Assembly: GCA_009691915.1 (NCBI GenBank) | Contig: SIAD01000004.1 | Coordinates: 1 to 64,000 of the forward strand | DNA from: Phycisphaerales bacterium | GTDB lineage: Bacteria; Planctomycetota; Phycisphaerae; Phycisphaerales; SM1A02 | Reading direction: 5' to 3' | DNA: 64,000 nt | Part shown: one piece after another, positions 44,385 through 48,946 of the stretch | Layout of the letters: each line of letters opens with the position of its first letter | Position numbering within the stretch: position 1 is the stretch's first letter | Notes under the pieces: generated by a model | Told to the model about the DNA's origin: nothing | What the model saw: the letters and a program-made list of their open reading frames with translations, nothing else | The model's database searches: none | Program-made: the position numbers and the translations under genes

Positions 44385-44406
44385 CGATCCATCCTAGAGA
44401 TTGTGG

Positions 44407-44412
44407 TATGAT
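44407..44412 (+). promoter_or_regulatory. Extended -10 promoter box for the nusA leader transcript
   Basis: TATGAT is preceded by TGG, giving an extended -10 (TGnTATGAT). No -35 match is seen, as is common with an extended -10. Transcription would start near 44419, making a 5' leader of about 295 bases before nusA. Confidence 0.5.
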
Positions 44413-44482
44413 GCGCCTTCCCACGGAATCGCTTCCTTGGGTGCCCGTCCGTCCCCTTGACCGCCTCAGCATTGGAGCGACC

Positions 44483-44536
44483 ATGAAGTTTCAACTCTTG
44501 GCTCGTGTCGAATCGGTACACCGAAGCCGCGTATGA
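44483..44536 (+). CDS. Possible 17-residue leader peptide upstream of nusA
   Basis: A short frame (MKFQLLARVESVHRSRV) begins at an ATG with a GGAG ribosome site 5 bp upstream (44474-44477). It ends 104 bp before a strong intrinsic terminator inside the nusA leader. The position fits a transcription-attenuation leader peptide, but no codon run of one amino acid is present. A coincidental start is the alternative. Confidence 0.4.
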   Translation: MKFQLLARVESVHRSRV

Positions 44537-44640
44537 CGCGTTTGTGCGTCCATCCGCGCCGACGGTCGGCAGTCTTCTCAGGGGCGTTCGCAGGACCGGA
44601 GACCCGTATGGGTTGAGGTTCCGTGAGCGCAGTCGGACGG

Positions 44641-44676
44641 GCCATGTTCGCGACCGCGGCGAACATGGCTTTTTTT
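44641..44676 (+). terminator. Strong intrinsic terminator inside the nusA leader
   Basis: GCCATGTTCGC (44641-44651) and GCGAACATGGC (44659-44669) form a perfect 11-bp stem with a 7-base loop, followed at once by seven T residues. It sits 38 bp before the nusA start with no gene ending upstream on this strand, so it would cut the leader RNA to about 255 bases. GTTCGC at 44677-44682 could compete for the 3' arm. Attenuation of nusA or an independent small RNA are both possible. Confidence 0.85.
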
Positions 44677-44714
44677 GTTCGCGGTGACATCTTGAATAAT
44701 CGAAAGGATCCGAC

Positions 44715-46070
44715 ATGAATGAAATCATCAGACTGCTGGACCATGTGGCCCGGGAGAAGAATGTGGATCGAGAACTGCTGGTGCAGGATCTTGAGCTGGC
44801 CATGGTGAGTGCCGCTCGCAAGCACTTCAATTCTGAAGAACCCGATGAGTTTGGCTGTTCGATCGACCGCCTTGGGGGGACGATTTCGCTCTGGCGCAAC
44901 GAGGAAGATGGTTCGCAGAAGGCGATCCCATTGGACCAACTTGGTCGGATTCCCGCACAGACCGCCAAGCAGGTCATGATCCAGCGGTTCCGCGAGAACG
45001 AGCGGGTCTCGCTCCTCGACGAGTTTTCGAAGCGGCAGGGAGAACTCGTGACGGGCGTGGCGCAGCGGTACGAGGGCAACGCGCTCATCGTGCAGCTCGA
45101 GCGCGCTGAGGGGTTCATGCCCAAGAGCGAGCAGATCCCCGGTGAGCAGTTTCAGGCGGGCGATCGGGTGCGTTGCATCCTGCTTGATGTCCGCGATGCG
45201 GGAAGTCAGGTCAAGATCGTCATGAGCCGTGCGCACCCTGACTTCATCCGCAGGCTGTTCGAATCGGAAGTTCCCGAGGTCGCCGAGCGCACCATCGAGA
45301 TCAAGGCCATGGCGCGGGAGCCGGGATTCCGCACGAAACTAGCGGTTTCGAGCGTTGACTCGAAGGTCGACGCCGTCGGTGCATGCGTCGGTGTGCGCGG
45401 ATCACGGATCCGCAACATCGTCGACGAGCTCGGCGGAGAGAAGATCGACATTGTTCGCTGGAACGAATCGAGCCAGGTGCTGATCTCCAACGCACTCAAG
45501 CCGGCGGAGGTGGAGGAAGTCAGTCTCTGCTTCGAGCTCGGGCGAGCCACGATCATCGTGCGCGATGATCAACTCTCGTTGGCCATCGGTCGCCGCGGGC
45601 AGAATGTGCGCCTCGCCGCGCGTCTCACCGGATGGGATGTCGACATTCTTACGCCGCCTGAGTTTGAGAAGGGTCTTGGGATTCTTCAGGCGACGGTCAA
45701 GACCGTCGAGGGTGCCGTCGACGAGATGCTCGACAAGATGGGGGCACTGGGAATGATCAGCGTCTTCGATGTGGAGGAGATCGGAGAACCAATCCTCGTC
45801 GAAGAGTGCGGGATGAGCGAGGAACTGGCGGTCGCGGTCGTCAATGCGTGCTCGGAGCGCGCCAAGACCCTGGCGGCGGAGATGCAGCGCGAGAGTGCCG
45901 AGGCCGCGGAACGAAAGGCGGCGGAGGTGGCGGTTGCCGACGCACTGCTGGGTGGCCATGGATCTGGGCATTCGGCTGTCGCCACGACCGACGCGCAGAG
46001 CGAGTCGGCGGCCGACAGCATTCTTGGTATTGGCGGCGCTGGTGCCGGCACCGCGGAGTCAAGAGCTTGA
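44715..46070 (+). CDS. nusA: Transcription termination/antitermination protein NusA
   Basis: The 451-residue RNA-polymerase partner modulates pausing and termination. It has the N-terminal polymerase-binding domain (about 1-125), an S1 domain (about 130-200), two KH domains with the GVRGSRIRNIVDELGGEKIDIV and LAIGRRGQNVRLAARLTGWDVDI signatures, and a C-terminal HhH-like region. The tail is Ala/Glu-rich. An AAAGGA ribosome site precedes the ATG. RimP, which usually precedes nusA, is absent; a leader with terminator occupies that place. infB follows. Confidence 0.96.
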   Translation: MNEIIRLLDHVAREKNVDRELLVQDLELAMVSAARKHFNSEEPDEFGCSIDRLGGTISLWRNEEDGSQKAIPLDQLGRIPAQTAKQVMIQRFRENERVSLLDEFSKRQGELVTGVAQRYEGNALIVQLERAEGFMPKSEQIPGEQFQAGDRVRCILLDVRDAGSQVKIVMSRAHPDFIRRLFESEVPEVAERTIEIKAMAREPGFRTKLAVSSVDSKVDAVGACVGVRGSRIRNIVDELGGEKIDIVRWNESSQVLISNALKPAEVEEVSLCFELGRATIIVRDDQLSLAIGRRGQNVRLAARLTGWDVDILTPPEFEKGLGILQATVKTVEGAVDEMLDKMGALGMISVFDVEEIGEPILVEECGMSEELAVAVVNACSERAKTLAAEMQRESAEAAERKAAEVAVADALLGGHGSGHSAVATTDAQSESAADSILGIGGAGAGTAESRA

Positions 46071-46081
46071 TCGCGCTTTGC

Positions 46082-46135
46082 ATGACAGGCATGACAGGCA
46101 TGACAGGCATGACAGGCATGACAGGCATGACAGAT
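46082..46135 (+). repeat. 9-bp minisatellite between nusA and infB
   Basis: Five exact copies of ATGACAGGC and a sixth that ends differently (ATGACAGAT) lie between the nusA stop and the infB start. Read in frame from the first ATG it encodes (Met-Thr-Gly) repeated five times, and the frame closes with MTDQNTLE and TAA at 46151-46153, 3 bp before infB. The GGAG that serves infB (46147-46150) lies within this frame, so translation of a mini-cistron could couple to infB. Confidence 0.9.
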
Positions 46136-46156: not shown

Positions 46157-48946
46157 GTGGCAACAAAGACAGTCAAGAGGATCCGAATCACAGCCGTCGC
46201 GAAAGATCTAGGGATCACCGCGAAGGACATCATCGAGAAGTGTGCCAGAGAGGGCATCGAGGGTGTCACGACCCCGCAAGCATCCGTTCCCATGGGGCTC
46301 GCGGAGACGATCAGGGAGTGGTTCGGTTCTGGCCATGGCTCGTCTGCCCAGGAGGTGTCGGATCATGTCGATCTTGTCGCAGCCCGCGAACGGGCGAAGA
46401 AGGGCGTCGCCAAGCGCAAGGCGGGAGGGGCGGACTCTGCGACGGAGACTCTCGAGTCGACCCGTGCCGTCGACGCTCCGCCCGCACCCGCGTCATCGGA
46501 CATGACGGCGACACTTGCGCATCCCAAGGCCATCATCGAGACGGAACCACCGGTGATTGGGATCGCACTGCCGCCTGCACTTCCGGCTGCACCCACCGCA
46601 CGCGTCGAGCCGATCCAGCCATCCATGGCGGCCGCGCCCAGCGTGTCACCCGCGCCACCGAGAGCTCCGCCCGCCGCGGCGTCGCCCTCGGCACCGCCAT
46701 TGGGCCGACCTCCAGTACCCGTCCAACCTGCGGCCATGAATGTCCCGACACGGCCGGTCCGAGCTCGGCCGACCGGCGAAGTTCTTCAGCCGACGAAGAC
46801 GAGCCTCTCCGGACCGAAGGTCATTCGCGTGGACCGCCCCGATAATCTCCCGGCGCCACGACCGCGAGTCGGAGGACCGTTTGGCTCGCCCGGTGCCGGG
46901 GATAGCCGCACGGGTCCAGGCGCGGGAGGCGGTGCGGGCGTTCGACGGCCTCCAGCGTCAGGGCGGGTTGGTAGACCGGGACGCGATGCAGGGAGGACTG
47001 GAAGAGCGGGCGAGGGAGCGACCGGTGGAGGCTTCAGTCAGAAGGATCTTGACGAGCGCACATCCCGACTGGGAAACTCCTCGGGGATCTTCAACAAGTT
47101 CAAAGCCGGCCGACGGCCTGTGTCGACGGCACCGCGGGTAGTCGCCGTCAAGCCTCAGGGGCCAGTCATCATTCCCGACCCTGTGGCCGTGAAGGAACTA
47201 TCGGAACTCACCGGCATCAAGGCGGCCGAGATCATGAAGCGGTCCCTGATGGCGGGGAACATGATCACCATCAATGCGGCGCTCGACGGCATGACTGCGG
47301 CGGAACTCATGGCCGGATTCGGCATCGAGATCAAGATCCGGCAGGAAGCGAGTGCCTCCTTCCAGATCGAGCAGCGCGCCGCCGCGCGCACACGCACCGA
47401 TGAGCGGACCCGACCTCCGGTCGTGACGATCCTGGGACATGTCGACCACGGCAAGACCACACTGCTGGATCGGATCCGCAACACCAATATCGCCGCCGGT
47501 GAAGCGGGGGGGATCACCCAGTCGACGCGCGCATTCAAGGTGACTGTCGAGTCCGGCGAATCCCCGCGCGAGATCACCTTCATAGACACGCCGGGGCATG
47601 AAGCGTTCACTGCCATGCGCTCGCGCGGCGCGAAGATCACCGATGTCGTGGTGCTGGTCGTTGACGCGGTAGAGGGGGTTATGCCCCAGACGGTCGAGAG
47701 CATCAATCATGCGAAGGCCGCGAATGTCGCGATCATCGTCGCGCTCAACAAGATCGATCGTCCGGACTTTGACGAGAAAAACCTGCAGCGGATCTACGGA
47801 CAGTTGGCAGCCAACGAACTCAACCCGACTCCATGGGGAGGGCCGGTCGAAGTTGTGCAGGTCAGCGGTCTCAAGGGCACGGGGATCCCGGAGCTTCTTG
47901 AACTCATCGCGCTGCAGGCTGATGTCCTTGAACTCAAGGGGGACTGGAAGGGCAACGCGCAGGGCACGGTGCTGGAAGCGCGCATGGAAGAGGGGCGCGG
48001 TGCCGTCGCCCAGATTCTGGTGCAGGAAGGTGTCCTCAAGCGCGGGGACTTTGTCGTCGTGGGTCGTGGGTTCGGCCGCGTCCGCGATATTGTGAATGAC
48101 CGCGGTGAGCGGATCCAGACCGCGTTTCCCACCATGCCCGTCGCGATCTCTGGGATCGATGCACTTCCCGACGCCGGCGACAAGTTCTATGTGGTCGACA
48201 GCCTGGCCGCGGCTGAGCAGGCGGCGGCCGAACGGCGCGCGACCGAGCGCGAACGAGAGCTCGCTTCTCCGAAGATCACGCTCGACAACATCTTTGAGAC
48301 GATGGCCAACTCGAAGCGCAAGGAACTCCCCTTGATCGTCAAGGCCGATGTGCAGGGATCGCTGGAGACGCTCAAGGTCGTCCTCGGTCGGATCAAGGCC
48401 GACGATGTGACGATCTCCATCAAGCACTCGGGGGTCGGAGGCGTCAACGAGAGCGATGTCGAACTCGCCGCGACCACGGGCAGTGTCGTCGTGGGCTTCA
48501 ATGTCACTAGTAACGCCAAGGCGCGCAAGCTGGCCGAGATCCGCCGGGTCGACATCCGGATGTACGAGATCATCTACCAGCTCACCGACGACATGGACAA
48601 GGCGGTGCGTGGTCTCCTTGAGCCGGAAGTCAAACTGCAGGTCCTCGGTCATGCCGATGTTCGTGCGGTGTTCAAGATCACCAAAGTCGGCGCCGTGGCC
48701 GGGTGCTATGTCACCGACGGCGTGGTCGAACGGAACGCGCAGATCCGCGTCACGCGCGACGGCATTGTCGTCGAAAAGGATCGCCGCCTCGAGCAGCTCA
48801 AGCGCTTCAAGGATGATGCCAAGGAAGTTCGCGCCGGCAACGAGTGCGGCATGAAGATCAACGGATACGACGACATTCGTGAAGGCGATGTTCTCGAGTG
48901 CTACAGGACGATCACGGTCCGTCCGCTGGGCGGCGGGAATGCGTGA
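46157..48946 (+). CDS. infB: Translation initiation factor IF-2
   Basis: The 929-residue GTPase delivers initiator tRNA to the ribosome. The start is GTG, with GGAG 6 bp upstream. An N-terminal IF2_N domain is followed by a long Pro/Ala/Gly/Arg-rich linker (about 90-320), a second IF2_N-like module (around 350), then the G domain with GHVDHGKTT (about 429-437), DTPGHEAF and NKID, and C-terminal domains that bind fMet-tRNA. The linker is longer than in E. coli and low in complexity. rbfA overlaps its end by 8 bp, completing nusA-infB-rbfA. Confidence 0.97.

Follow-up and report, generated by a model that had tools for sequence, protein, structure and literature searches.

Introduction

Known ribosome-based attenuators read amino acids, antibiotics or nascent peptides. 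Another kind of short frame is the two-codon minigene, to which the bar minigenes of lambda belong. Two-codon minigenes acting in cis are described, in the accessible text of the source, as mg2 of axe-txe (ATG-act-TAA) and as the LEE1 ler minigene (PMC8708949), and start-stop uORFs are reviewed, in a text likewise accessible in part, as a eukaryotic class (PMC5972666). The most ubiquitous predicted attenuator is reported to be a terminator upstream of rimP-nusA-infB whose stem has the form GGGc/gCCC; the accessible part of that paper records no larger element there and names NusA as the likely effector (PMC2965389). In E. coli, the operon is repressed by NusA in a feedback, according to the accessible portion of PMC6511841.

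Here, we describe the leader of nusA in a window of 64,000 nucleotides (the whole stretch of DNA that was analysed) from a Phycisphaerales bacterium. Judged by comparison of related sequences, a start-stop mini-ORF that ends a relay of upstream frames is deeply conserved ahead of nusA-infB in Planctomycetota. A search of the literature, chiefly papers available without subscription, turned up no start-stop element described for the leader of nusA or of infB, and the accessible text of PMC13236596 and PMC4965119 does not describe one.

Results

Organization of the leader and comparison sets

The signals and genes of the locus are the following.

44404..44412, +, extended -10 promoter element, TGG TATGAT (sequence; aligned in genus relatives)
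44474..44477, +, Shine-Dalgarno (SD) site of ORF1, GGAG (sequence)
44483..44536, +, ORF1, 17 residues, MKFQLLARVESVHRSRV (sequence, genus comparison)
44533..44616, +, ORF2, 27 residues, joined to ORF1 by an ATGA overlap, its in-frame end being the start-stop mini-ORF (genus frame keeping; few stops in frame)
44598..44601, +, SD site of the mini-ORF, GGAG (sequence, order-level comparison)
44608..44616, +, start-stop mini-ORF, ATG GGT TGA (order, class and phylum comparisons)
44641..44676, +, intrinsic terminator, 11-bp stem and seven Ts (sequence, order-level and genus comparison)
44703..44708, +, SD site of nusA (sequence)
44715..46070, +, nusA, with NusA_N and NusA-like KH domains (Pfam)
46157..48946, +, infB, encoding IF2, the next gene of the operon (Pfam IF-2, IF2_N and GTP_EFTU)

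According to Pfam, the operon comprises nusA, infB and rbfA, with a divergent DsbD-like gene upstream. The terminator stem, GCCATGTTCGC/GCGAACATGGC, occupies 44641-44669 and is followed by Ts at 44670-44676, which leaves 38 bp to nusA at 44715. All the parts named in the initial annotation are present, namely the -10 box (44407-44412), the 17-codon frame, the 11-bp stem and the seven Ts; the leader itself stands, and its length is 308 bp from the -10 box to nusA, not the 330 bp given there. Missing from that annotation were ORF2 and the start-stop mini-ORF, which are the most conserved features of the leader. The gap between nusA and infB holds a 9-bp repeat, GCATGACAG, with six perfect copies at window positions 46080-46133.

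In this sequence taken alone, a terminator motif scan gave two hits, compared with 1.0 (sd 1.1) in shuffles, which is not beyond background, and the fold of the leader is moderately unusual (z = -2.5). Since the motif was near chance and the fold moderate, relatives were brought in. The nusA gene was located in 59 of 61 relatives, 119 of 120 class genomes, 57 of 59 genomes of the phylum sample and all 41 of a second order, and a further 80 named loci with nusA, mostly Phycisphaerales and Planctomycetota MAGs, were added. The order-level set combines the labelled relatives with the named loci, whose order was not checked singly; clustering by shared 8-mers reduced its 132 leaders to 120 non-redundant ones. 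Many comparisons of ORF1 endings and pseudoknot variants were first made by eye, and in one by-eye comparison of class loci 1 of 40 was not placed.

The arrangement of a short frame and an intrinsic terminator before nusA-infB, as originally proposed, is kept in relatives, with a promoter upstream: genus relatives carry TATAAT or TACAAT at the -10 position, and TTGAAA is present further upstream in eleven of these.

Absence of a recognisable rimP

The idea that the leader takes the place of the usual rimP gene proved misleading, as RimP_N was found in 0 of 61 relatives and 0 of 120 class genomes, with matches in 10 of 14 control genomes. The domain was matched in 10 of 59 genomes of the phylum sample, and rimP seems to be widely lost or diverged in Planctomycetota. 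Because a recognisable rimP is lacking throughout the class, the leader is no stand-in for a local loss of rimP.

No Rfam family matched the window at the gathering score or its leader at E ≤ 10. RF01770 had no match in 18 class and phylum loci at the gathering score, or in 10 of them at E ≤ 10; the E. coli leader, used as a control, scored 102 bits. The segments GGGCC..GGCCC in L002 and GTGGG..CCCAC in class loci resemble the wider rimP-leader motif by eye only.

A start-stop mini-ORF in the order

In the 120 order-level leaders, ATG, one codon and a stop occurred 79 times with no SD required, compared with 8.4 (maximum 16) in dinucleotide shuffles, and the counts for 0, 2, 3 and 4 codons between ATG and stop were 15, 9, 4 and 6. 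When an SD of at least 4 bases was required (n = 115 order-level leaders), the counts for zero to six codons before the stop were 6, 67, 3, 0, 0, 2 and 4, against about 1.3 each in shuffles. All 64 triplets were then tested in the position before X-stop; the three largest excesses belonged to ATG (67 vs 1.2), GTG (18-19 vs 2.0) and TTG (11 vs 2.0), followed by CGG (11 vs 2.8). Since it is the start codons that show the largest excesses, the pattern is a signature of initiation and not a base motif.

The layout of a two-codon minigene (SD, start, one codon, stop) is thus found here. Among the 101 chosen mini-ORFs, the start codon was ATG in 74, GTG in 17, TTG in 9 and CTG in 1, and the stop codon was TGA in 77, TAG in 14 and TAA in 10. 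The middle codon is varied: Thr 24, Gly 18, Arg 11, Ala 10, Met 9, Ile 8 and others. No mini-ORF above the score threshold was found in 19 of the 120 order-level leaders, one of which (L003) has CTG-GGC-TGA at the equivalent place.

Pairing of the second codon with bases upstream or downstream was considered and rejected, as it concerned a minority of the 101 leaders (18 in one register, null mean 6.4, maximum 12; 16 downstream, null mean 4.6, maximum 12).

ORF1, ORF2 and the frame relay

In the genus, the TGA of ORF1 overlaps the ATG of ORF2, and in all 18 members ORF2 runs in frame to the start-stop site over a distance of 66 nt (15 members), 75, 78 or 84 nt. At the order level, 3 of 101 leaders carry a stop in frame with the mini-ORF in the 20 codons that precede it, compared with 37 expected from stop density and with 23 and 13 in the other two frames. 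When ORF1 was picked by its SD alone (79 of 124 leaders), an overlapping start opened into the start-stop in 54; frame controls for this choice are confounded by the frequency of GTG and TTG overlaps, and ATG overlaps were open in 32 cases in frame 0 and in 16 in frame 2, the DNA being GC-rich. As overlapping starts in other frames are also often open, the count of 54 is weak when taken alone.

The synonymous fraction of changes in ORF2 was 0.18 in its own frame and 0.37 and 0.49 in the other two; with no synonymous excess, a conserved ORF2 peptide was ruled out. Consequently, it is the translation of ORF2, and not its product, that seems to matter. Together with the varied middle codon of the mini-ORF, this indicates that the feature which has been kept is initiation followed by immediate termination.

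An arrest of the ribosome by the product of ORF1 or ORF2 would be another way to use these frames, and ORF1 endings are in fact similar within groups (RVES...NR[LV] in many genus members; SRA in L269, L296 and L297). Between families, however, the endings are unlike and overlap a conserved hairpin, and the ORF2 peptide, as noted above, is not conserved, so that we regard control by a leader peptide as very improbable.

Two side observations concern ORF1 in other families. In four loci of one family (L035, L037, L039 and L041), ORF1 encodes a conserved peptide of ten residues resembling MHRWEEPSAW, with Trp before the stop. In six loci of three class families (L269, L275, L276, L277, L296 and L297), ORF1 is a very short frame, and a GTG inside its last codons starts an ORF2 that is in frame to the start-stop; this pattern was seen by eye in the six loci and by script in L269, L276, L296 and L297.

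Gene specificity and phylogenetic depth

One-codon start-stop sites were counted in the leaders of infC (0, n = 30), frr (3, n = 28 of 30 leaders used) and pth (1, n = 30) and were at or below the level of shuffles, while the same count in a nusA subset gave 35 in 50 leaders, compared with 5.0 in shuffles. A general trait of translation-factor gene leaders was ruled out on this basis.

In other families of the class, SD-ATG with 0, 1, 2 and 3 codons before the stop was found 8, 16, 9 and 1 times, against about 1 each (46 leaders from 45 genomes, L085 and L289 being the same genome counted twice). The ATGTAG matches in L281, L282 and L284 lie, by eye, within the end of the upstream gene; without these three and the duplicate, the counts are 4 for no codon, 15 for one and 9 for two. 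The SD-start-stop count gave no site in class families f9, f10, f14 and f22.

In the second Planctomycetota order, AUG directly followed by a stop occurred 15 times in 24 non-redundant leaders, compared with 0.8 in shuffles, and one or two middle codons were present in 2 and 1 cases. An infB gene was found downstream in 1 of 30 loci of this order, a figure of little weight since it comes from limited downstream sequence, and in a rough motif check 20 of 30 showed a pattern like the N terminus of IF2. An earlier phylum sample, from which 12 of 20 stretches were dropped for having too little of nusA for placement, had the site in 2 of 8 placed leaders, both from that second order. In the E. coli leader, no start-stop site was seen by eye.

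What the comparisons establish is, at the level of predicted signals, a fixed order of promoter, two overlapping frames, SD-start-(0-2 codons)-stop, terminator and nusA-infB.

Terminator and RNA structure

A structural model for the genus, built on 14 leaders, consists of a 5' hairpin, a long-range helix P1, a hairpin at the start of ORF2, the mini-ORF stem, the terminator and a pseudoknot between the terminator loop and a downstream segment. In addition to the terminator, it includes the following elements.

44420..44441, +, 5' hairpin of the leader, CCCA/TGGG core (helix 1, 2 of 4 pairs changed on both sides)
44444..44451, +, 5' strand of P1, CCCGTCCG (fold, genus structure)
44529..44557, +, hairpin with the ORF1 stop and the ORF2 start codon (helix 3 of the genus structure)
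44584..44630, +, stem-loop presenting the mini-ORF, GCGTTCGC/GTGAGCGC (helix 4, 83.9% paired)
44634..44641, +, 3' strand of P1, CGGACGGG (abuts the terminator, with one base in common)
44653..44656, +, bases of the terminator loop, pseudoknot-capable at the genus level (can pair with 44682-44685)
44682..44685, +, downstream partner of the terminator loop (complementarity)

In this model, 93.9% of cells are paired, compared with 25-36% for slid versions; 8 pairs are changed on both sides (3.9 in shuffled sets), and the covariation score exceeds that of all 500 shuffles. The two-sided changes fall in the 5' hairpin, the mini-ORF stems and the terminator. The P1 helix is 100% paired in the genus, with 3 of 8 pairs varying on one side only, and the pseudoknot is invariant; order-wide, P1 shows a modest excess (13 of 91 leaders at p ≤ 1/30, with about 3 expected). 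The ORF2-start hairpin has a median z of -2.0, and the start codon is paired in 21 of 32 leaders.

Of the 101 order-level leaders with a mini-ORF, 95 have a hairpin and T-rich tail in the interval from this frame to nusA, and this, along with the pairing kept in the genus, bears out the conservation of the stem that had been named as a check. The distance from the mini-ORF stop to the terminator stem ranges from 4 to 114 nt (median 56) at the order level, which makes direct blocking of the stem by the ribosome unlikely in most leaders. A match of at least 6 bases between the terminator loop and the segment downstream was present in 19 of 95 leaders, mostly of the genus, against 5.7 (maximum 12) with partners shuffled. 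As the partner sits past the T-run, only transcripts that read through could form the pseudoknot, just ahead of the ribosome site of nusA.

The initial annotation also allowed that the RNA of about 255 nt up to the terminator could be a small RNA in its own right, a suggestion that suits a structured RNA with its own promoter and terminator. The lack of an Rfam match, the nature of the conserved features, which are translation signals, and the fact that the compared loci were all found via nusA weigh against it, and we consider it very unlikely.

A search for pairing partners of the 5' arm of the terminator found no antiterminator common to the order-level leaders. Equilibrium folding of 16 leaders predicted that the terminator forms by default in most of them and, with a ribosome masked on the start-stop, remains nearly unchanged in most. 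One account that would need no antiterminator is ribosome parking, where a ribosome held at the SD and start-stop would protect the leader against nucleases and stabilise the mRNA, termination not being controlled; this is how the authors explain the axe-txe two-codon minigene and the esp six-codon mini-ORF in the accessible text of PMC8708949. A strong terminator is nevertheless present downstream in 95 of 101 leaders, and the relay of ORF2 into the site would be superfluous for parking alone, so that we rate parking as unlikely.

The predicted default formation of the terminator would equally suit regulation by NusA alone, which would raise termination at a rimP-leader-like terminator while the start-stop merely releases ribosomes ahead of it. 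Before rimP-nusA-infB, such a terminator, its 5' arm rich in G and its 3' arm rich in C, is the most ubiquitous of the predicted attenuators (PMC2965389), and the E. coli operon is repressed by NusA (PMC2965389, PMC6511841), in each case as far as the accessible text goes. For the release of ribosomes, however, a plain stop codon would suffice, and an SD and a start placed 0-2 codons before the stop would be unexplained; regulation by NusA alone is therefore, in our estimation, unlikely. Autoregulation by NusA as such, proposed in the initial annotation, is plausible by analogy with the rimP-leader as described in the accessible part of PMC2965389.

Discussion

Our best reading, to which we give about even credence, is a translated attenuator that controls the nusA-infB-rbfA operon through the start-stop site. 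The ribosome would enter at ORF1 and be passed by the ATGA overlap to ORF2, whose start would be hidden by the hairpin until ORF1 is read. It would end at the start-stop, where the SD and the start codon right behind the stop would allow termination and re-initiation in place. The time of occupancy would be set by initiation (IF2, initiator tRNA) and by termination and recycling and, given a middle codon that is variable or missing, would be independent of any one amino acid or peptide. The outcome at this site would set how often RNA polymerase passes the terminator, by which IF2 and NusA would feed back on their own operon. The link from the ribosome to the terminator is one that we infer; it may consist in coupling with RNA polymerase involving NusA, or in protection of the mRNA.

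Since the middle codon varies, the peptide is not conserved and, in the second order, a middle codon is usually missing altogether, what the site can report is limited to initiation, termination and recycling; with infB directly downstream, feedback by IF2 would be its simplest purpose. We suggest tentatively that Planctomycetota have here a sensor of translation initiation of their own, in which the start-stop ribosome gauges IF2, initiator tRNA and release or recycling and feeds back on the IF2-NusA operon. Such a sensor would need neither a peptide nor a specific elongator tRNA and could possibly, with the same reservation, be the bacterial counterpart of eukaryotic start-stop uORFs.

The transcription attenuation proposed at the outset agrees with the leader frame, the terminator and the promoter upstream; its classical form with alternative hairpins is weakened, given that no common antiterminator was found and that masking was nearly neutral in most of the 16 leaders folded. 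Of the classical marks of an attenuator, the leader has a frame before an intrinsic terminator, its translation being suggested by signals and frame keeping. An antiterminator hairpin mutually exclusive with the terminator was not seen in equilibrium folding, and regulatory codons for one amino acid were not seen and are absent in AUG-stop leaders.

A site that keeps only start and stop would read the steps of initiation and termination, and it precedes the gene of IF2. Kept throughout a bacterial order and recurring in a second order of the phylum, this putative start-stop control site gives a concrete test of how bacteria set the levels of an initiation factor and NusA.

Among known systems, the rimP-leader (RF01770 and the wider motif) is alike in having a U-run terminator in the leader of rimP-nusA-infB, with NusA feedback proposed (PMC2965389); the present leader differs in having no Rfam match and no rimP and in adding the relay and the start-stop, which the accessible text of that paper does not mention. 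Amino-acid operon attenuators share with it a short frame before a terminator, whereas here there is no run of codons for a single amino acid and no antiterminator was found. The eukaryotic start-stop uORFs (plant NIP5;1 AUG-UAA, DENR-MCT-1 targets), as far as their accessible descriptions go, also use AUG followed directly by a stop as a control site, but they work through a scanning 40S and re-initiation at the main frame, in place of which bacterial SD sites and an intervening terminator are present here. Closest in layout are the two-codon minigenes of E. coli and plasmids, which likewise place SD, start, one codon and stop in a leader and for which an effect in cis is described in the accessible text (PMC8708949). 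Each of those is an isolated case close to a start codon further downstream, while the site described here is kept through an order and beyond, ends a two-frame relay and stands ahead of a terminator and a housekeeping operon.
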